From a bacterium (GTDB taxonomy: Bacteria > SM23-31 > JAUVVT01): a stretch of DNA of 13,045 nt. A program made the position numbers and the translations under genes. Shown piece by piece: positions 2,466 through 13,045 of this stretch. The notes below the pieces were generated by a model, which was given only the letters and a program-made list of their open reading frames with translations, was not told the origin of the DNA and made no database searches. The stretch is from the NCBI GenBank assembly GCA_030616165.1, contig JAUWXV010000092.1:1-13045 (forward strand), given 5' to 3'. How positions within the stretch are numbered: the first letter of the stretch is position 1; each line of letters starts with the position of its first letter.

Positions 2466-3977
2466 ATGAACACTATTTCCCGGAAAAAATTTCACGACTA
2501 CTTTTCAAATCCACTAATTGAAAATCTTCTAACATCGACAGTCAAAACAATTATAGATATGGCTGATGCTGACAAAGGGATATTTTTTTTCTATAATTCA
2601 TTAGAAGATAGTTATGAACTTCTCTTCTCAGTTGATAAGGACGGAACTTACAAATATTATGGCACTCAATTTGACGACAAAACATTAAAATTTTTATTTC
2701 AATCAAAATCCTATATGAACATAGATTCAGAAGATAAATATCAGGAACATTTCGGTAAAATATCTTCCCTTTTCGGTAAAAAATTTTCAAGTTCTATCCT
2801 TTCAGAGATAAAACATAATGAACACAAACTTGGATTCATAGAAATTTTAAGGGTCAAACCTTCCAAAAAATTTACTGAAACCGAACTTCAAATTGTGAAA
2901 AAATTGACAAATTTCGCCGAATTGACGATAAAAGGGAGCTTACTTCCAAGTTTTCAAAAATTTAATGAAATAGACAAAACAGAAATAAAATTAGACCAGA
3001 TAAACATAGTCACAGGCAAAAGCCCCAGATTTCACGAAATCCTTAAAAACATTTCAAAAGTCGCAAAAACTTCGTCAACAGTTTTATTGATGGGAGAAAG
3101 TGGAACAGGAAAAGAGGTTCTCGCAAAAATCATACATAAAAATTCCGACCGAGCCGATAAACCATTTGTCAGAATAAATTGTGCAGCAATTCCAGAAAAT
3201 CTCCTGGAGAGCGAACTTTTCGGTTATGAAAAGGGAGCATTTACCGGAGCAGTCTCAAAAAAGGCAGGAAAATTCGAACTTGCTGATAAGGGAACAGCAT
3301 TTCTTGACGAAATCAGCGAAATGTCCCTTAATCTTCAGGCAAAACTTCTGAACTTTATTCAAGAAAAAGAATTAGAAAGGATTGGTGGATTAAAAACCAT
3401 CAAGGTCGATGTGAGGATCATTGCCGCTACCAATATAAACCTCGAAAAGGCTACCGAACAAAATCAGTTTCGAGAAGACCTTTATTACAGGCTAAATGTA
3501 TTCCCAATTTACCTGCCTCCTTTAAGAGAAAGAACCGAAGACATTCCTTTATTCATAGAATATTTTATAGATAAATATAATGAAGAACTCGGGAAAAATG
3601 TGACAGGTATTTCCGACGAGGCACTATTCTTAATGAAGAACTATGATTGGCCTGGAAATATCAGAGAACTCGGCAACATAATTGAAAGGGCGATGGTTAT
3701 CGGCTCAAGTAATATAATAATACCTAATGACCTCCCACATGAAATTTTTGGCATATTAGGAAAGATGCGCAAGAAGGATAAAGAATTTAGATTTAGAGAA
3801 GGTGTTTCATCTTTATGGGAAGTCGAAAAAGGTATTATCGAAAGGGCTCTGCGAGAATCTAACGACAACCAATCTCTTGCAGCAAAAAAATTAGGCATCA
3901 CGAGAAACCATCTTCGATATAGAATAAAAAAATGGAATATATCAATCAAAAATAAAGAAAAAACAGCCGGGTCATAA
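2466..3977 (+). CDS. Sigma-54-dependent transcriptional activator (GAF - AAA+ - Fis HTH)
   Basis: This is a bacterial enhancer-binding protein that uses ATP hydrolysis to open sigma-54 RNA polymerase promoters. The 503 residues divide into an N-terminal GAF-like sensor (about 15-160), a central AAA+ domain (about 180-425) and a C-terminal Fis-type helix-turn-helix (about 455-490, with [20 protein letters not shown]). Visible motifs are Walker A GESGTGKE (210-217), the sigma-54-contacting loop GAFTGA (257-262), Walker B FLDE (279-282), sensor I AATN (320-323), [14 protein letters not shown] (335-348) and sensor II GNIREL (397-402). All are intact, so it should be active. There is no receiver domain; the GAF domain probably binds a small ligand or takes part in protein contact. 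Its stop lies 2 bp before the methyltransferase gene, so the two are likely co-translated. I found no sigma-54 promoter (-24/-12) in the window, so the targets are unknown. No Shine-Dalgarno precedes the start. Confidence 0.93.
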
Positions 3978-3979
3978 AT

Positions 3980-4690
3980 ATGAAAAGAATAAATTTTTCA
4001 GTATTTTTTTTGGTTTTATTATTTTTATTTCCTTCCCAAAACGAGGAATACTTCACCCAACTCCGTAAGCAGATGGTAGAAAGACAACTGAAAAGAAGGG
4101 ATATCACAGACCCAAAAGTTCTTGATGTAATGGGAAAAGTCAAAAGGCATCTTTTTGTCAGTGAAAACTTAATGGGAGAAGCTTATGCTGACTTTCCTCT
4201 TCCAATAGGTGAAGGGCAGACAATCTCTCAGCCTTATATTGTAGCCCTTATGACCCAGCTTCTCAATGTCAAACCAGGTGAAAAAGTCCTGGAAATTGGA
4301 ACAGGCTCAGGATACCAGGCAGCGGTACTCGCTGAATTGACCGATTCAGTTTTCACTATTGAAATAAAAGAAAAACTTGCGGTTAGTGTAGAAAAAAGGC
4401 TGAAAAATTTAGGATACCACAATATAAAAGCGAAATACGATGACGGATATTATGGATGGGAAGAATATGCCCCATTTGATGCGGTTATCATTACTGCCGC
4501 AGCCAATCATATCCCGCCTCTTCTTGTCAAACAGCTCAAAGAAGAAGGAAGATTGCTCCTCCCACTCGGAAGCACAAGATACTGGCAGACACTTACTATG
4601 GGGACAAAAATAAGTGGCGAACTGAAAAATATAAGGCACTATACTGATGTGATTTTCGTCCCTATGACCGGAGAAATTCAGAAAAGATGA
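3980..4690 (+). CDS. pcm: Protein-L-isoaspartate O-methyltransferase with an N-terminal export signal
   Basis: This is a SAM-dependent enzyme that methylates L-isoaspartyl residues in aged proteins to start their repair. The core (about 32-232) shows [12 protein letters not shown] (78-89) with the PCMT-specific TISQPY, SAM motif I as LEIGTGSGY (104-112), [14 protein letters not shown] (166-179), GRLLLPLG (190-197) and VIFVPMTG (224-231). Before the core lies a basic start (MKR) plus a run of hydrophobic residues (4-18) that looks like a Sec signal peptide. It has no lipobox cysteine. The product is 236 aa, against about 210 for cytoplasmic Pcm. An internal ATG at 4073 (Met32) would give a conventional cytoplasmic enzyme, but it has no Shine-Dalgarno. 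ATG 3980 lies 2 bp after the preceding stop, favouring translational coupling to the activator gene. If exported, the source of SAM in the periplasm is unexplained. The family call is certain; the location is inferred. Confidence 0.93.
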
Positions 4691-4699
4691 TAAAGGGGA

Positions 4700-4757
4700 T
4701 TCATGAAAATACTCTTTTGAAAAATTATCGATATTTTTTCAAAAAGTATTATATGAA
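4700..4757. repeat. Long AT-rich interrupted palindrome after pcm
   Basis: The inner 43 nt (4708-4750) form a near-perfect palindrome centred on TATCGATA. It has arms TTTTGAAAAA and TTTTTCAAAA, and outer AATACT paired with AGTATT, with one bulge. Pairing continues outward with TTCAT (4700-4704) and ATGAA (4753-4757). It begins 9 nt after the pcm stop and precedes the phosphatase gene. It may end or stabilise the pcm transcript, although no U-tract follows, or it may be a protein-binding or cruciform site. Confidence 0.6.
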
Positions 4758-4816: not shown

Positions 4817-5821
4817 ATGCAAAAAAATATTAAAAAAATTTTAGAAATATTGAGATATGCCATTAAGGAGGAAACAGAAGCATTTATGGATTATTACAAT
4901 GGAAGCAAAAATGTTGATATTCCAGAAATAAAAGGAATTTTACTTTATCTGGCTGAAGAAGAAAGAAAACACAAAATCCTTTTACTGAACGAATTAAATA
5001 ATTTAAAAAATTATGGCTTAAATGGTATTAAAGTAATATCAAAAATAAAAAAACATGAAATAAGATTCAGAATTCCAAAAAACTATATATTAAAAACTCT
5101 GCAAACGATACAAGAAATTGATTTATCAGGGATTTCTCTGCCAGCGGAGATTGTTGGTGGTGATTATTTGGACACATTCTCAATCAAAGATGAGAAAAAT
5201 GGTATATGTAAATTAGGGATAATTCTTTACGATGCTATGGGACATGGGCTTTCTGCTACATATATTAAATCTGTAACCAGAGCAATCTTCCAGAAATTCA
5301 GAGAGGATTTTTACAATAATAAAAATATCAAAATATTTAATCCTTATAAAATTGTTACAGAAATTAACAGAGAAATTACAAGAAAGTGTCAAAAAGAGGG
5401 TTCTTTTGTTACGCTGTTTTACTGTGTAATTGACTCAGAGAAGAGAGAACTTTCTTATACATCTGCCGGGCATGAACCACCGATTTACATCAGGAAAAAT
5501 ATTGATTCAGCAGAACAATTAACAACAACTCAGTTACTGTTAGGATTCAACGAAAATATAAAATATACAGAAAATAAGATAAAGATAAACCCTGGAGACA
5601 TATTTGTCTTATTTACAGACGGGATTATTGAAGCAAAAGATTCTAATGGGGATATGTTCGGAAGAGAAAAAATAGTCAAAACGGTAATGAAACACAGGAA
5701 TAAATCCTCATCACAGATTCTGGATAAAATAATAGAATCTTTAAAAAATCACGTCGGTAAAAAGTTTGTGAATGATGAAATAAGTCTGCTTGTGGCAAAG
5801 GCAAATTCAAATCAAAAGTAA
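4817..5821 (+). CDS. Ferritin-like half-domain fused to a SpoIIE/RsbU-type PP2C phosphatase
   Basis: Residues about 5-65 form two predicted helices with rubrerythrin-type spacing. In the first, Glu19 is followed by Ala at +3 and Tyr at +7 (EETEAFMDYY). The second carries LAEEERKH, with an ExxH pair at Glu49 and His52. One Glu plus one ExxH is half of a di-iron site, so two chains would have to pair to complete a four-helix bundle. After a linker, residues about 95-328 form a PP2C-type serine/threonine phosphatase of the SpoIIE/RsbU class: VGGDYLD (113-119, Asp116), YDAMGHG (138-144, Asp139), SAGHEPP (216-222), FTDGIIEA (266-273, Asp268) and NDE (319-321, Asp320). The metal-binding aspartates are present, so it should be active. 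Such phosphatases usually dephosphorylate STAS anti-sigma-factor antagonists; no such partner lies in this window. There is no transmembrane segment and no Shine-Dalgarno. The phosphatase call is firm; the di-iron sensing role is inference. Confidence 0.85.
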   Translation: MQKNIKKILEILRYAIKEETEAFMDYYNGSKNVDIPEIKGILLYLAEEERKHKILLLNELNNLKNYGLNGIKVISKIKKHEIRFRIPKNYILKTLQTIQEIDLSGISLPAEIVGGDYLDTFSIKDEKNGICKLGIILYDAMGHGLSATYIKSVTRAIFQKFREDFYNNKNIKIFNPYKIVTEINREITRKCQKEGSFVTLFYCVIDSEKRELSYTSAGHEPPIYIRKNIDSAEQLTTTQLLLGFNENIKYTENKIKINPGDIFVLFTDGIIEAKDSNGDMFGREKIVKTVMKHRNKSSSQILDKIIESLKNHVGKKFVNDEISLLVAKANSNQK

Positions 5822-6473: not shown

Positions 6474-6893
6474 TTACTTTGTTTTTTCAATTTTCTCTAT
6501 CTGAATAGCATTTAAACTACCCTTCTGCCATAACTTTCCGGAAATTTTAACATCTTCTTCAATAAATTCCATTACTTTTTCATTTGGATTTCCATGTCCC
6601 TCAGGAAAAACAAGATATATTATGTTAGTATCCTTTTCTAATATTCCAAGATTAATCCCATTTTTTGCACACATCTGTGCACATTTCTTATGTTTTTCTC
6701 CTATCATATCCATAGTTATATAGCAATATGGGTCTATAATATGTCCTTCTATAGTAATCTCCTTTCCTTTTGCTGCCTCGGTTTCTTTGTGCTGCATCAT
6801 CATTTCAGTCTTTTTCATCTGCGATAAACCAAATGAAAAAATAAATATCACCCCTAATAATATGAAAATACCAGATAATTTTATTGATTTCAT
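6474..6893 (-). CDS. Secreted Cys/His/Met-containing protein of a metal-efflux operon, function unknown
   Basis: This 139-aa protein has an N-terminal signal (KSIKLSG, then hydrophobic residues 8-23), so it is probably periplasmic. A Met/His-rich linker follows (MKKTEMMMQHK, 26-36), then a compact domain (about 45-136) of mostly beta character. The domain starts EGHIIDPYCY and contains Cys57, His68, Cys71 and Cys75 (HKKCAQMC), a plausible soft-metal or disulfide site. The C-terminal part (VKISGKLWQKGSLNAIQIEKI) resembles small OB-like secreted domains. It is the last gene of the operon, 31 bp after the HMA gene, with AAGGAGAG 7 nt before ATG 6893. Metal binding in the periplasm is inferred from composition and context. 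I cannot name the family. Confidence 0.8.
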   Translation of the reverse strand: MKSIKLSGIFILLGVIFIFSFGLSQMKKTEMMMQHKETEAAKGKEITIEGHIIDPYCYITMDMIGEKHKKCAQMCAKNGINLGILEKDTNIIYLVFPEGHGNPNEKVMEFIEEDVKISGKLWQKGSLNAIQIEKIEKTK

Positions 6894-6924
6894 GTTAAAA
6901 CTCTCCTTAATTTAATTATTGAAT

Positions 6925-7272
6925 CTATTTTTTACCTGCTTTTTTGAGAATTTCCTCTGGATTTGAACAGCAGGGAGACGCCTTCTGATTAAGATTACTT
7001 TTTTCATTCTCTTCACAAAAATGAATAAAACTTCTCTCTAATTTAGTTAAAAAATTATCCTTAATGTTATAACCTATCTCTTTAATTTTCTCCTCGATTG
7101 ATTTCAATTCGGTTTGTGAAAGATTATATATCACTTTGACTTTCCCCTTCTTGTAATCTGCGTTCACCTGTTTTACACCACATATTTTTGAGATTACATC
7201 TTTAATTTTTTGCTCACAACCATCACAAACCATATTATCAACTTCAATTGTTCTTTTTTTAATTGATTCCAT
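6925..7272 (-). CDS. HMA-domain metal-binding protein with a Cys-containing C-terminal tail
   Basis: Residues about 5-72 form a heavy-metal-associated (HMA) ferredoxin-like domain of the CopZ/MerP type. The metal loop is MVCDGC (14-19), where Cys16 and Cys19 bind Cu(I) or another soft metal, and the end IGYNI is typical. CopZ proteins are about 70 aa; this one has 115, with a tail carrying Cys86 (HFCEENE) and a Cys101-Cys102 pair (SPCCSNPEEILKK). There is no signal peptide, so it is probably a cytoplasmic metal chaperone or buffer. AGGAGA lies 11 nt before ATG 7272. It follows cusA by 130 bp, a gap holding a repeat copy, and precedes the secreted Cys protein by 31 bp. The role of the tail is unknown; it could be a second metal site. 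Confidence 0.87.
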   Translation of the reverse strand: MESIKKRTIEVDNMVCDGCEQKIKDVISKICGVKQVNADYKKGKVKVIYNLSQTELKSIEEKIKEIGYNIKDNFLTKLERSFIHFCEENEKSNLNQKASPCCSNPEEILKKAGKK

Positions 7273-7402
7273 TTTTAATATTATCTCCTATTTTTTTAAT
7301 TAAGTTTTACTCTCTTTTACAAATTCCCTTTTTTTTAAAAAAGAAAGTAGACAAAGAAACTTTTCACTTATCCTGAATACTCGGGATGCTTAAATCTCTT
7401 AT
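7273..7402. repeat. Dispersed repeat, copy 2, inside the metal operon (repeat core 7325-7398)
   Basis: The spacer between cusA and the HMA gene contains TTTTTTTTAAAAAAGAAAGTA, then ACAAAGAAACTTTTCAC, then TCCTGAATACTCGGGA (7371-7386) and TGCTTAAAT. This matches copy 1 (1811-1911) apart from a small palindrome missing here. TCCTGAATACTCGGGA differs at two positions from the 16-bp palindrome at 6342-6357. As all other gaps in this operon are 23-41 bp, the 130-bp gap is best explained by insertion of this repeat. Confidence 0.55.
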
Positions 7403-10400
7403 CTATTGCTCAGATATTAACTCACCTTTTTTTATTGCTCTTTTTACGCTCCACTCTTTCCATATAGTATAAATTGCAGGTATCACAATTAGTGTGAGAA
7501 TCGTTGATGAAATCATCCCCCCAACCATTGGAGCGGCTATTCTTTTCATGACCTGTGAACCTGCTCCGTGTCCCCACAATATCGGCAGAAGTCCAGCAAT
7601 TATTGCACTAACAGTCATCATTTTGGGACGAACTCTCTCTACAGAGCCTATAATGACCGATTTATAAATATCCGGTATTCCAAAATTTCGACCCTTTTCC
7701 TTTTTTAAGGCATCATAGGCGTGGTCGAGGTATATTATCATAACGACCCCTGTTTCTGCAGCAACTCCTGCAAGGGCAATAAATCCAACCCAGACTGCTA
7801 CACTAAGATTATAGTTTAGTAAATACATAAACCATATCCCCCCGATTATCGAGAATGGCAGAGAAAGCATAACTATTATCGCTTCTGTGATATTTTTGAA
7901 ATTGAAATACAACAGTAAAAATATTATCATCAGCGTTATAGGAATAACAACTTTCAGCTTTTCTTTTGCTCTCTGCATATATTCATACTGACCACTCCAT
8001 ATAATATGATAACCCGGAGGAAATTCAATTCTCTCTGCAACTATTTTTATTGCCCTTTCAACATAGGTACCAACATCAATATCTTTCAAATCGATATATA
8101 TCCATGCATTTGGTTTTGCATTTTCGCTTTTAATACCCGGCGGCCCTTTTCTAATTTTTATATCTGCAAGTTGAGCCAGTGGAATTTGTTCTCCACGAGG
8201 AGTTGGGACAAGAACACGCCTTAAAGAAGAAATATCATCTCTCAGTTCTCTTCCATATCGGATATTTACAGGATACCTCTCCAGCCCTTCAACAGTTGTT
8301 GTTATGTTCATTCCACCGATAGCACTCATTATCACATCCTGCACATCACCAATTGTCAAACCATAGCGTGCAATCTCGTCTCTGTTAATTTCAAAATCAA
8401 AATAGTTTCCTCCGACTACTCTCTCGGAATAGACGCTCAGCGTTCCAGGTATTTCTCTTATAACTGCTTCAATCTCTTCTCCAATACTTTCCAATACATT
8501 TAAATCAGGCCCCGCTATCTTTATTCCAACAGGAGTTTTGATGCCTGTGCTCAGCATATCAATACGTGTTTTGATAGGCATTGTCCAGGCATTGGTTAAT
8601 CCTGGGAATTGAATAGCATTATTCAATTCCTCAACCAGTTTTTCAGGAGTCATACCAGGGCGCCATTCTTCCTCGGGTTTCAGCATTATTGTTGTTTCTA
8701 TCATACTTAATGGAGCAGGGTCTGTTGCCGTTTCTGCTCTGCCTATTTTTCCGAATACATGGTGAACTTCAGGAAAACTTGCAATTATCGCATCAGTCTG
8801 CTGTAATAATTCTTTTGCCTTTGTAATAGAAATCCCCGGTAACGTTGTAGGCATATAGAGCAAATCTCCTTCATATAAAGGGGGCATAAATTCTGAACCC
8901 AATTGCTTAAACGGAAAATATGTTATCAGCAAAATTATTACTGCAATTAAAATTATAGTCTTCTTAAAACGCAGTACTCCATTTATCATTGGTCTGTAAA
9001 CTTTAATCAGAAACCTATTAACAGGATTTTTTTCTTCAGGCATTATTTTACCTCTAATGAAATATCCCATAAGAATTGGAACAATTGTTATTGACAGCAA
9101 TGAAGCCGCCGCCATAGCAAAGGTCTTTGTAAATGCTAACGGTTTAAAAAGCCTTCCTTCTTGAGCCTCCAATGTAAAAACAGGTATAAAAGAAAGTGTA
9201 ATGATTAATAGCGAATAGAATAATGCTGGCCCAACTTGTTTTGAAGCATCAACAATTATACTCCAATGCTCTTTTTTTCCTCCATCCCTTTCAATATGTT
9301 TATGTGCATTTTCTATCATAACGATTGCAGCATCAACCATCGCTCCGATTGCTATGGCAATTCCGCCAAGTGACATTATATTTGCGTTTACGCCCATTTG
9401 GTTCATTACGATAAAGGATATCAGTATTCCGACAGGCAGTGTAAAAATAGCTACTAATGCACTCCTGAAATGAAGCAGGAACAAAATACATACGAGTGCA
9501 ACAATAGCAATTTCTTCAAGCAGTTTATGACTCAATGTATCTATCGCTCTATAAATTAAAGAAGACCTGTCATAAACAACTTTTATACTAACTCCGGGAG
9601 GCAGTCCTGGTTTAATTTCTTCTAACTTCTTTTTAACATCATTAATGACTTTAAGAGCATTTTCTCCGAATCTCATTATCACAATGCCGCCAACTGCCTC
9701 TCCGATTCCATTATATTCTGCTAATCCTCTTCTTATATCTGGACCAAGATGAACATAACCTATATCTTTAATTTGAATAGGCGTTCCGTTTAAATCAACA
9801 CCAACTGCAATTTTTTTAATATCATCAATCGATTTTATATATCCCAGCCCCCTAACCATATATTCAGTTTCAGCCATTTCCAGCAGTCTTCCACCTACAT
9901 CATTATTACTGCGTCTTATAGCATTCGTAACTTTTGAAAGTGGGATATTATAAGCAAGAAGTTTATTTGGGTCAATATCAACCTGATATTGTTTCACAAA
10001 TCCGCCTATACTTGCTACTTCTGAAACGCCGGGGACGCTTGCCAACTCATATCTGAGATACCAATCCTGTATGCTCCTTAATTGGGCTAAATCATGGTTA
10101 TCGCTTTCAAGTATATATTGAAAAGCCCAGCCAACCCCTGTGGCATCTGGACCAAGAGTTGGTGTGACACCTTTAGGGAGTCGGCTTGAGACATAGTTTA
10201 AATACTCGAGAACCCGACTTCTTGCCCAATACATATCTGTTCCATCCTCAAAAATTACGTAAACAAATGAAAATCCGAAAAATGAATACCCTCTTACCAC
10301 ACTTGAATAAGGAACCGCAAGCATTTGAGTTGTTAAAGGATATGTAATCTGGTCTTCAATTATTTGTGGAGCCTGTCCAGGATATTCTGTGTATATTATT

Positions 10401-10540
10401 ACCTGAACATCACTTAAATCCGGAATTGCATCTAATGGAGTATTCATCATCGAGAAAATTCCCCATCCGATCGCGAATATAGTAAATAAAATCACTATAA
10501 ACCTATTTCTGACAGAAGCTTCTATAATTTTTTCTAACAT
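7403..10540 (-). CDS. cusA: Heavy-metal RND efflux pump, Cu(I)/Ag(I) CusA type
   Basis: This is the inner-membrane proton-driven trimeric pump of a tripartite system exporting copper or silver. It has 1045 residues counted from ATG 10540, normal for CusA/CzcA. Twelve membrane segments are expected: one near 14-34, clusters near 340-500, one near 530-545 and clusters near 865-1025, with two large periplasmic loops. The TM4 segment GGIAIAIGAMVDAAIVMIE carries Asp403 and Glu410, with Glu929 and Lys973 matching the CusA proton relay. Met613 (PLSMIE), Met662 (RIDMLSTG) and Met744 (GGMNITT) fall at or within a residue of the CusA methionine cluster, favouring Cu/Ag over Zn/Co/Cd. A TTG at 10546 directly abuts the Shine-Dalgarno AGGAGA, so ATG 10540, 6 nt away, is the start. 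The gene lies 41-47 bp after cusB. Confidence 0.95.
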   Translation of the reverse strand: MLEKIIEASVRNRFIVILFTIFAIGWGIFSMMNTPLDAIPDLSDVQVIIYTEYPGQAPQIIEDQITYPLTTQMLAVPYSSVVRGYSFFGFSFVYVIFEDGTDMYWARSRVLEYLNYVSSRLPKGVTPTLGPDATGVGWAFQYILESDNHDLAQLRSIQDWYLRYELASVPGVSEVASIGGFVKQYQVDIDPNKLLAYNIPLSKVTNAIRRSNNDVGGRLLEMAETEYMVRGLGYIKSIDDIKKIAVGVDLNGTPIQIKDIGYVHLGPDIRRGLAEYNGIGEAVGGIVIMRFGENALKVINDVKKKLEEIKPGLPPGVSIKVVYDRSSLIYRAIDTLSHKLLEEIAIVALVCILFLLHFRSALVAIFTLPVGILISFIVMNQMGVNANIMSLGGIAIAIGAMVDAAIVMIENAHKHIERDGGKKEHWSIIVDASKQVGPALFYSLLIITLSFIPVFTLEAQEGRLFKPLAFTKTFAMAAASLLSITIVPILMGYFIRGKIMPEEKNPVNRFLIKVYRPMINGVLRFKKTIILIAVIILLITYFPFKQLGSEFMPPLYEGDLLYMPTTLPGISITKAKELLQQTDAIIASFPEVHHVFGKIGRAETATDPAPLSMIETTIMLKPEEEWRPGMTPEKLVEELNNAIQFPGLTNAWTMPIKTRIDMLSTGIKTPVGIKIAGPDLNVLESIGEEIEAVIREIPGTLSVYSERVVGGNYFDFEINRDEIARYGLTIGDVQDVIMSAIGGMNITTTVEGLERYPVNIRYGRELRDDISSLRRVLVPTPRGEQIPLAQLADIKIRKGPPGIKSENAKPNAWIYIDLKDIDVGTYVERAIKIVAERIEFPPGYHIIWSGQYEYMQRAKEKLKVVIPITLMIIFLLLYFNFKNITEAIIVMLSLPFSIIGGIWFMYLLNYNLSVAVWVGFIALAGVAAETGVVMIIYLDHAYDALKKEKGRNFGIPDIYKSVIIGSVERVRPKMMTVSAIIAGLLPILWGHGAGSQVMKRIAAPMVGGMISSTILTLIVIPAIYTIWKEWSVKRAIKKGELISEQ

Positions 10541-10587
10541 ATCCAATCTCCTTTAATCATATTTTCTGATTAATCCATAATTTTTGC

Positions 10588-12048
10588 CTACATATCATGT
10601 CCAGCATGCGGATTCATTTCGCCATTTCCTTCTCCACTGGTTTTAGTTGCTTGTCTTCTTTTTGCAAGCATTTTATTAATTGCGTCTTTTAGCTTGCTTT
10701 CCGAATCTATTAAAAACTGGGACGAAGTGACAATCCTTTCACCTTCCTGCAGACCATTTAATACTTGATAATATCCATCAGCTTCTGCACCTAAATCTAT
10801 ATTTCTTGGTTCGAACCTTCCTTCGCCCAAATCTACAACTACAATATTTCTTTCCCCCGAACGGATTATTGCTTCTGTTGGAACAGCGATTCCGTCCTTT
10901 GTTATTTCAGATTCAATATCAATATTAGCATACATATCGGGTTTTAATATCCAATTGGGATTTGAAAATTCTAATCGAACCTTAATTGTCCTTGTATTTT
11001 TTTCCAGATAAGGATAAATATAAGTTATACGTCCGGTAAATGCTTTTCCGGGATAATATGACAGCGTCATCTTTGCAGTCTGACCGATTTTCATCCACGG
11101 CAGTTCATATTCATATATATCTGCATAAACCCAGATATTGGATATATCAGCAATTTTATAAATATGAATTTGAGACTTGATATATCCACCTTCTAAGACA
11201 TTTTTCTCTAACACAATCCCTTTAACGGGTGAATAAATAGTCATAGTTTTTTTTGTTTCTTTTGTTTTTTCCAGAATATCTATCTGCTCATCTGTTATAT
11301 CCCACAGTTTAAGTCTCCTTTTTGTTGAATTGAGCAGTTCGTTAACTCCTCGTGTAATCTCCGGGAATTTACTCATTTTTAATTTTTCTTTAGACGCCCA
11401 AGCAAGCAGATATTCTTCTTGAGTATTTACCAATTCCGGACTGTAAATATCAATCAAAGGTTGGCCTTTTTCTACAACCTGACCGGGAAAATCAACATAT
11501 AATTTTTCAGCCCATCCTTCAATTTTGGTGTTAATATAGAAAACCTTTGTTTCATCATAATCGATTCGACCGACCGTTCTTATTGACCTTTTTAGTGTAC
11601 GTATTTCAATATCTTCGGTTCTTACCGCCATTTTTTGAATAACTGATGAACTTAATTTCACCACATTTTCTCTTTTTATCTCTTTCTTTACGAGTGTCAT
11701 TCCGCAAATAGGGCATTCACCGGGCTCTTTGGAAACTATGTCCGGATGCATCGGACAGGTATAATATTCACCAGCAATATCAGATGTCTTCCCTTCCGCG
11801 GTCTCCACTTCATCTTCGTATACTGGTACCAAATCCATTCCCATCGGAGATTTGCCAGGCTTATCAGAAATGTAAGTTGGGTCCATCGGTGCTTTCCAGT
11901 ATAAAATTTTACGTCCTTCTTTATGCTGAATAGCAGTAACAGATGTATCTGTATTTTGATTATATTTATTATTTATCCACCAAATGAAACCTGCCGCTTC
12001 AAGAGCTAACAGAATGACAACTACTATTATAATTTTAAAATTTTTCAT
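10588..12048 (-). CDS. cusB: Periplasmic adaptor (membrane fusion protein) of metal RND efflux, CusB type, with two N-terminal metal-binding modules
   Basis: This adaptor links CusA to the outer-membrane channel and can pass metal to the pump. The 486 residues begin with an uncleaved-looking signal/anchor (6-26). Two heavy-metal-binding modules follow: one without cysteine, with PMDP and KSPMGMDLVPVY (54-77), and one with YTCPMHP and CPICGM (97-117; Cys98, Cys112, Cys115). The adaptor core starts near 130, with VGRIDYDE, the biotinyl-lipoyl halves near 170-200 and 270-300, an alpha-helical hairpin (about 205-265), and beta-barrel and membrane-proximal domains to about 445. The C-terminus ends in NPHAGHDM, adding His and Met ligands. 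AGGAGG lies 9 nt before ATG 12048. It is 23 bp after the outer-membrane gene and 39 bp before the cusA ribosome-binding region. Family and role are firm; metal specificity is inferred. Confidence 0.95.
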   Translation of the reverse strand: MKNFKIIIVVVILLALEAAGFIWWINNKYNQNTDTSVTAIQHKEGRKILYWKAPMDPTYISDKPGKSPMGMDLVPVYEDEVETAEGKTSDIAGEYYTCPMHPDIVSKEPGECPICGMTLVKKEIKRENVVKLSSSVIQKMAVRTEDIEIRTLKRSIRTVGRIDYDETKVFYINTKIEGWAEKLYVDFPGQVVEKGQPLIDIYSPELVNTQEEYLLAWASKEKLKMSKFPEITRGVNELLNSTKRRLKLWDITDEQIDILEKTKETKKTMTIYSPVKGIVLEKNVLEGGYIKSQIHIYKIADISNIWVYADIYEYELPWMKIGQTAKMTLSYYPGKAFTGRITYIYPYLEKNTRTIKVRLEFSNPNWILKPDMYANIDIESEITKDGIAVPTEAIIRSGERNIVVVDLGEGRFEPRNIDLGAEADGYYQVLNGLQEGERIVTSSQFLIDSESKLKDAINKMLAKRRQATKTSGEGNGEMNPHAGHDM

Positions 12049-12071
12049 TATAAAATTCCTCCTTTTTAAAA

Positions 12072-13045
12072 TTAAAACAATTTTTCCCCTATAATAAATT
12101 CCAAATCTGCCAAACTTTTTTCATAATTAGTTAATATCCTGTAATATTCTATCTCATAATTGAATAATATCACTTGATTGTCCAGTAAAGTGAGAAAATC
12201 AACCTTATCCACCTGATAACCTGCAATTGCAGATTGAAGAGACTGCGAAGCTTGAGGTATAATCCCTTGTTCCAACAGTTCAAGAAGTTCATTATATTCT
12301 TCAATATTGGATGTCAATTCTCTGATTTTATATTGTATTTCATTTTTCATCCCGATGTAACTTTCACGAACAGCAGTAATCGAATGAGCAGTCTCTTCAA
12401 CCTTTTTACTCTGCTTCCTATTAATAAATATAGGAATACTTAGTGAAAACATGGTCGTAAAAAAATCCCTTCTATCCTCACGTTGGGTATATCCCAAAGA
12501 AACATTTAAGTCTGGATAATAATCTTTTTTAGCGAGTTCATATAGATATTCATTTTTTTCAATTTGATTCTCCATAGCCTTCAACATCGGGCGAGTTTCA
12601 AAAGCAATTTTGTCAAGTTCATCGGACTCTAAATCAAATTGTGACTGTTCAAATTCTGCAAGTTTTACAATTTGTGTTTCAGGTAACCTATTTAAAAGAG
12701 TATTTATTCTTGCAACTAAACTTTTGCGTTTCTGCCTTAGGGTGATTAATTTTTCCATTATCACTGAAAGTTCAACCTGTGCTTTTAAAACATCCTGCTG
12801 AAGCCCTCTGCCAACCTCGTATTTACTACTGACAATCTTAATAAAACTTTCTAAAAGACTTTTATTCTTTTCAGTTATTTCGATTGAATTATCAATTAGA
12901 TATAAATTGTAATAAGCTGTTTTAACTTTTTTTATAATTTCATTTTTTTTATCATAGAATAATTCACCAAAAACTTTTTCATCTTCTTCCGCTACTTTTT
13001 CCTTGAGAGAAGTTTTTCCAGGAAATGGTATCTGCTGCATAAATA
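12072..13045 (-). CDS. Outer-membrane efflux channel (TolC/CusC family), N-terminus beyond the window
   Basis: This is the outer-membrane partner of the CusAB-type pump, forming a trimeric channel. At least 322 residues are visible, rich in long amphipathic helices with TolC-like internal repeats. The first has YEVGRGLQQDVLKAQVELS (74-92 counted from Met 13040) and the second has YQVDKVDFLTLLDNQV. QIPFPGKTSLK near the visible start is the conserved entry to the first helix pair in CusC/CzcC-like proteins, normally preceded by a signal peptide and roughly 80-100 residues. The frame stays open upstream of the ATG at 13040 to the window edge, so that Met is internal, not the start. It is the first visible gene of the operon. 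The promoter and any regulator lie to the right of the window. Confidence 0.9.
   Translation of the reverse strand, partial: FMQQIPFPGKTSLKEKVAEEDEKVFGELFYDKKNEIIKKVKTAYYNLYLIDNSIEITEKNKSLLESFIKIVSSKYEVGRGLQQDVLKAQVELSVIMEKLITLRQKRKSLVARINTLLNRLPETQIVKLAEFEQSQFDLESDELDKIAFETRPMLKAMENQIEKNEYLYELAKKDYYPDLNVSLGYTQREDRRDFFTTMFSLSIPIFINRKQSKKVEETAHSITAVRESYIGMKNEIQYKIRELTSNIEEYNELLELLEQGIIPQASQSLQSAIAGYQVDKVDFLTLLDNQVILFNYEIEYYRILTNYEKSLADLEFIIGEKLF

Follow-up and report, generated by a model that had tools for sequence, protein, structure and literature searches.

A gene at 4817-5821 (+ strand) of the analysed window, i.e., the whole 13,045-nucleotide stretch of contig JAUWXV010000092.1, starts with ATG and encodes a 334-residue protein in which a two-helix half-ferritin hairpin, related to the encapsulated ferritins (EncFtn), is fused to a SpoIIE/RsbU-type PP2C phosphatase domain. 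The reading that we propose as the best one is that of a cytosolic sensor phosphatase, and by analogy with EncFtn we favour, with reasonable though not strong confidence, a dimerisation switch gated by iron or by peroxide/O2 that would control the phosphatase. The features concerned are as follows:

4817..5821, + strand: half-ferritin/SpoIIE-type phosphatase fusion gene (ORF; Pfam; full-length orthologue at 64% identity)
4817..5017, + strand: half-ferritin (EncFtn-like) two-helix hairpin, residues 1-67 (Pfam Rubrerythrin; EncFtn profile and fold matches; models)
5018..5116, + strand: linker, residues 68-100 (structure model; alpha0 motif count)
5117..5806, + strand: SpoIIE/RsbU-type PP2C phosphatase domain, residues 101-330 (Pfam; PDB sequence matches; Foldseek)
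4871..4873, + strand: Glu19 codon, equivalent to the EncFtn di-iron ligand Glu32 (gap-free 5n5e profile alignment; invariant in 34 rows)
4892..4894, + strand: Tyr26 codon, equivalent to EncFtn Tyr39 at the iron site (5n5e alignment; invariance)
4961..4963, + strand: Glu49 codon, equivalent to the EncFtn di-iron ligand Glu62 (5n5e alignment; invariance)
4970..4972, + strand: His52 codon, equivalent to the EncFtn di-iron ligand His65 (5n5e alignment; invariance)
5162..5164, + strand: Asp116 codon, GGD motif, predicted PP2C metal ligand (invariant)
5231..5233, + strand: Asp139 codon, DxMGHG motif, predicted PP2C active site (invariant)
5618..5620, + strand: Asp268 codon, DG motif, predicted PP2C metal ligand (invariant)
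5774..5776, + strand: Asp320 codon, DE motif, DD in ordinary members (invariant)
3980..4690, + strand: PCMT, protein-isoaspartate methyltransferase, 5' of the fusion (context; gene order common to the nearest relative)

The N-terminal domain is, as judged from its sequence, an EncFtn-like half of a di-iron four-helix bundle with a predicted metal site. Pfam assigns residues 10-64 to Rubrerythrin (PF02915) with 32.9 bits for the whole protein and 35.4 bits for the N-terminus alone (cut-off 22.8 bits), and matches the same model in 25 of 29 fusion members. Only positions 1-57 of the 137-position profile are covered, indicating a single half of the two-repeat ferritin bundle; the score is thus that of a member of the Rubrerythrin superfamily, while the chain does not hold both halves of the bundle. 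This half-match bears out the original prediction, which had described the N-terminus as half of a di-iron domain and had named Glu19, Ala22, Tyr26, Glu49 and His52, all of which occupy these positions in the translated ORF. A profile of 34 fusion N-termini aligns without gaps to the P. furiosus encapsulated ferritin 5n5e, in a register that equates E19 with E32, Y26 with Y39, E49 with E62 and H52 with H65, so that two helices carry the E-x6-Y and ExxH motifs in the EncFtn arrangement. The closest NCBIfam models for the N-terminus are those of encapsulin-associated half-ferritins, with scores far below their cut-offs (EncB 28.2 versus 90; ferrit_encaps 27.5 versus 125, for the window protein), and the Pfam EncFtn-like model is likewise missed (18.3 versus 27), which marks the domain as a distant relative that lies outside these curated families. 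AlphaFold models of the full protein contain a two-helix hairpin at residues 2-31 and 36-67 with pLDDT values mostly of 93-97, and identical helices are obtained from the hairpin alone (mean pLDDT 94.5). The best 50 PDB chains in a Foldseek search with the hairpin are nearly all half-ferritins or rubrerythrin relatives (rmsd 0.6-2.4), the E-values being weak because the domain is short. In VIA-align, unrelated helical hairpins score equal to half-ferritins, so that the weight of the assignment lies with ligand register and conservation and not with the fold.

Ten of the 68 N-terminal alignment columns are invariant among the 34 N-termini (A15, E19, Y26, L45, A46, E48, E49, H52, L56 and E59), and all four EncFtn iron-site positions are among them, for which the probability by chance is about 3e-4. 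The invariance of Glu19, Glu49 and His52 is what the original prediction had demanded of homologues if it was to stand, and that of E19, Y26, E49 and H52 also holds in 19 rows of less than 70% identity. Selection bias was checked, since one of the patterns used in the collection search included LAEEERxH. Twenty of the 29 aligned loci also match a phosphatase-only pattern and were thus found independently of the ExxH motif, while five members found by whole-protein profile rather than by this motif retain E19, Y26, E49 and H52 and vary at E47 and R50; both observations counter the search pattern as the source of the invariance. Mean pairwise identity is higher in the N-domain than in the phosphatase (0.56 versus 0.39). 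Most of the surface varies among members, unlike the iron-site residues. Residues 18 and 21, which correspond to the EncFtn entry-site residues Glu31 and Glu34, are not conserved in the fusions.

The C-terminal part carries a SpoIIE domain (PF07228) at residues 133-329, with 149.8 bits against a cut-off of 25 bits, together with the metal-binding aspartates of the SpoIIE/RsbU-type PPM phosphatases. The PP2C aspartates, which the original prediction had described as kept, are D116, D139, D268 and D320; they are invariant across 29 full-length fusion members, and the phosphatase domain is therefore probably active. Sequence matches in the PDB are to RssB, SiaA and SpoIIE, and Foldseek matches are to RssB, the RsbU domain of Rv1364c and SpoIIE. 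The last aspartate motif reads DE in most fusion members and DD in ordinary SpoIIE phosphatases. The two domains are joined by a segment in which AlphaFold places no helix (residues 68-100) and which is disordered at residues 69-78 (pLDDT <50). A simple motif test found an alpha0 IQxxLLP-type motif in none of 29 fusions versus 33 of 37 other SpoIIE domains; the helical alpha0 linker, common among SpoIIE phosphatases and not required for the Pfam domain, is thus lacking here. RsbU-type phosphatases are controlled by dimerisation, and the signal is thought to pass via dimeric crossing alpha-helical linkers (PMC12143880). As the alpha0 motif is absent, standard coiled-coil transmission does not seem directly applicable to the fusion family, whose signalling may be non-canonical, and the family thereby probes the generality of the coiled-coil rule for SpoIIE phosphatases.

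The two-domain layout, for which a search in other genomes had been proposed, recurs in about 35 full-length members from Zixibacteria, Krumholzibacteriota, Latescibacterota, Fermentibacterota/Aegiribacteria, Eisenbacteria, candidate division B38, the lineage of the window and others. About 85,000 species genomes were scanned, which yielded 29 full-length loci (L064-L092, L079 included), and profile searches added further members in other lineages. The nearest relative, from a genome of the same family, is 64% identical over the entire length and keeps PCMT 5' of the fusion in the same order. Among 132 genomes of the phylum Zixibacteria, ten possess an intact fusion, scoring 330-427 bits and aligned from position 1-3, and the remaining SpoIIE matches reach at most 164 bits, with an empty gap between the two sets. 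In a tree built from phosphatase domains, 34 from fusions and 54 from other SpoIIE proteins, a single branch with 100/100 support separates the fusions, whose side of the tree mostly tracks phyla. This pattern is consistent with one ancient fusion followed by many losses, transfer being also possible. One fusion copy (L142/L178, G547; also L094, CP070839) carries GGV at the otherwise invariant GGD, followed by a masked run of N, and may be decayed or reflect a sequence problem.

Genes that recur around the fusion encode two-repeat rubrerythrin-like proteins, Fur-family regulators, ferritin, flavodiiron protein, superoxide reductase, hybrid-cluster protein and peroxiredoxin, as well as rubredoxin-containing proteins (rubrerythrin, rubredoxin and rubredoxin-flavin reductase). 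These identities were verified with Pfam, and the 'rubrerythrin' cluster also holds rubredoxins and rubredoxin-flavin reductases, which are joined to it via the rubredoxin domain. At least one iron/oxygen-defence gene lies within about 5 kb of the fusion at 25 of 37 loci (79 matches in 319 kb), as compared to none of 38 other SpoIIE loci from the same genome set (0 matches in 348 kb), a difference with a Fisher p of 4e-11 that overstates independence, owing to the kinship of the loci and to a choice of gene classes made from the fusion side. The loci with such neighbours span at least six lineages, and at several of them (e.g., L092 and L118) the defence genes come 3' of the fusion in the same orientation, at intervals of a few bases. 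We propose that in most lineages the fusion serves the adjoining oxygen/iron-defence regulon. No oxidative-stress genes are present on the contig or near the locus in the case of the window, its 64% orthologue and the Fermentibacterota loci, and the context thus supports the family rather than the window copy specifically. Accordingly, the input of iron or peroxide/oxygen that the original prediction had suggested finds support in the neighbourhoods of many relatives and none in the locus for which it was made. A role as encapsulin cargo was considered and rejected, as no encapsulin-type gene recurs around the fusion loci and the curated EncFtn cut-offs are missed.

At L039:838-2922 and at L083 (G141) the fusion adjoins an RseC-like protein and a CxxC thioredoxin-like protein, and in this lineage a Fur-family regulator, peroxiredoxin, superoxide reductase and hybrid-cluster protein are encoded no more than 5 kb from the fusion. 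At another locus (L072:6667-7182), a 171-residue protein encoded two genes 3' of the fusion has an N-terminus with a single half-ferritin-like motif, a C-terminus of no recognised type and no Pfam match at 1e-5; it is possibly a second half-ferritin with another partner domain.

According to the proposed mechanism, the hairpin would supply one half of a four-helix bundle of the di-iron type and a second copy the other half, so that Glu19, Glu49 and His52 of each chain, with Tyr26 close by, would together form one symmetric di-iron site as in EncFtn. The dimer, and through it the activity of the PP2C domains, would then respond to how much iron is available or to O2 or H2O2 oxidising the site; the target of these domains would be a phosphoserine/threonine protein, which they dephosphorylate. 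A direct precedent that supports the dimer idea is provided by EncFtn itself: there, two neighbouring chains build a single di-iron site from the equivalent residues and oligomerise in response to Fe2+, with a decamer/monomer ratio that rises from 0.11 without iron to 4.5 with iron; the E32A and E62A variants assemble without iron, while H65A is mostly monomeric (PMC5012862). The Fur, rubrerythrin, superoxide reductase, flavodiiron and ferritin genes near many relatives in turn support an input of iron or of oxygen/peroxide. For this switch we infer metal binding, the dimer, the signal (iron versus O2/peroxide), the direction of switching and the substrate. The known EncFtn dimer is antiparallel (PMC5012862), from which it would follow that the chain ends exit at opposite ends of the bundle. 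The linkers of 30-odd residues would in that case need to reach back, or else the dimer might keep the phosphatases apart and thereby inhibit them. A broader claim, to which we give somewhat less than even weight, is that metal-driven pairing of half-ferritins represents a new signalling class, acting as a switch for the oxygen/iron-defence regulon across several uncultured phyla; loading with iron or oxidant would make or break the di-iron site shared by two phosphatase subunits.

The conservation and context data also bear on other explanations of the hairpin. It could be a dimerisation module only, without any sensing of iron or oxygen, with a partner protein supplying the signal in the way that RsbT acts on RsbU; RsbU is under the control of such a partner and carries a helical domain for dimerisation (PMC12143880). 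The invariance of the four EncFtn iron-site residues on a domain whose surface is mostly variable, and a neighbourhood made up specifically of iron/oxygen-defence genes, make such a role rather unlikely in our view. Another reading takes the hairpin as a ferroxidase/peroxidase mini-enzyme fused to a phosphatase of the same pathway for co-localisation rather than gating; EncFtn, with identical ligands, is indeed a ferroxidase and the neighbours include rubrerythrins and ferritins. Complete ferritins and rubrerythrins are, however, already supplied by the adjoining genes, the fusion lacks a rubredoxin domain of its own, and encapsulin-type genes do not recur nearby, for which reasons this reading appears distinctly unlikely.

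The frequent adjacency of a two-repeat rubrerythrin-like gene, and the single half motif at the N-terminus of the protein encoded near the L072 fusion, would fit a hairpin that heterodimerises with rubrerythrin-like neighbours, so that the phosphatase reads their loading and binds no iron of its own. We hold this to be highly improbable, given that the two-repeat neighbours are complete bundles in need of no partner and that many loci, including the window, have no such neighbour. Finally, helical hairpins resemble many unrelated folds, and the Rubrerythrin match might be a spurious hit to a chance hairpin. While VIA-align alone is insufficient to reject this explanation, it is scarcely credible and already largely refuted: the Pfam score exceeds the cut-off in the window protein, the model is matched in most members, and the gap-free ligand register and the invariance of the ligands speak against it.

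The substrate of the phosphatase is probably a STAS-type antagonist, and a sigma-factor partner switch as its output is only an assumption. No linked anti-sigma kinase, STAS antagonist or sigma factor is encoded in the window, and no partner-switch genes are found among the neighbour families that recur in at least three fusion loci. Genes for an RsbW-like kinase and a STAS protein do occur in other parts of the genome, unlinked to the fusion, and three other SpoIIE phosphatases are possible users of these two proteins.

The fusion combines elements of several known systems. EncFtn (Rru_A0973, PFC_05175) and EncB/EncC are, like its N-domain, two-helix half-ferritins with aligned ligand positions, and they are its top fold matches; EncFtn, however, is a cargo protein of encapsulins and works as an iron-oxidising and iron-storing decamer with an entry site at Glu31/Glu34, while the fusion domain is joined to a phosphatase. 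Phosphatases of the RsbU/RsbP/RsbZ/RssB type share the PP2C output and the catalytic aspartates, and the RsbU type is controlled by a dimerising N-terminal module (PMC12143880), an arrangement comparable to that proposed here. Their known inputs are the RsbU N-domain, PAS, GAF, HAMP and receiver domains, in contrast to the half-ferritin of the fusion with its missing alpha0 motif. The hemerythrin sensors DcrH, Bhr-DGC and Bhr-HD-GYP likewise couple a non-heme di-iron helical bundle to a signalling output, and Bhr-DGC activity varies with redox state (PMC9388753). Hemerythrin nevertheless has a different, His-rich fold that is complete in one chain, as opposed to a half bundle, and its outputs are chemotaxis, c-di-GMP enzymes and an ATPase rather than a PP2C phosphatase; a review of these sensors names no phosphatase output (PMC9388753). 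In the Vibrio vulnificus stressosome, a heme-globin RsbR links O2 sensing to an Rsb-type pathway tied to iron metabolism (PMC9237108); that system is heme-based, senses in RsbR and relays via RsbT, whereas in the fusion the sensor would be part of the phosphatase.

The original prediction regarded a ferritin-like sensor on a SpoIIE phosphatase as unusual, and in agreement with this no report of one was found among 5.39 million open-access papers, nor does a survey of bacterial PP2C phosphatases mention ferritin or rubrerythrin. As far as was found, the fusion therefore joins a known output domain to a sensor type previously undescribed in the literature searched, and the architecture may be listed in domain-architecture databases without study. 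The established roles of ferritin-like bundles are those of enzymes and iron stores; sensing for a signalling phosphatase would, if true, be a new role in which an iron-storage fold has been turned into a sensor. The switch would be a simple one, leading from iron or oxidant to dimer state and from there to phosphatase output, since EncFtn half-bundles assemble with iron. As the iron ligands are kept across several uncultured phyla and oxygen-defence neighbours are frequent, the fusion family may provide lineages that lack a cultured model with a general route of oxygen/iron signalling.

Among the remaining features of the window, the intergenic region between PCMT and the fusion contains an AT-rich near-palindrome (4708-4750) with arms of 15-18 nt, which is not seen 5' of the fusion of the nearest relative. 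A PerR-box scan of the window was unconvincing, with 13 weak matches versus 7.4 expected; the best, at 2326 and 6288, have two mismatches each, and the region directly 5' of the fusion holds no match. PADLOC returned no match, and no fusion relatives were found in viral contigs. A sigma-54 activator gene lies immediately 5' of PCMT, which is followed by the fusion, and 6474-13043 on the - strand is occupied by a heavy-metal efflux cluster:

2466-3977, + strand: sigma-54 activator with AAA and Fis-type HTH domains and an N-terminal stretch without Pfam assignment
6925-7272, - strand: HMA-domain protein (efflux cluster)
7403-10546, - strand: CusA-type RND pump (efflux cluster)
10588-12048, - strand: CusB-type adaptor with heavy-metal-binding domains (efflux cluster)
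12072-13043, - strand: TolC-like outer membrane protein (efflux cluster)
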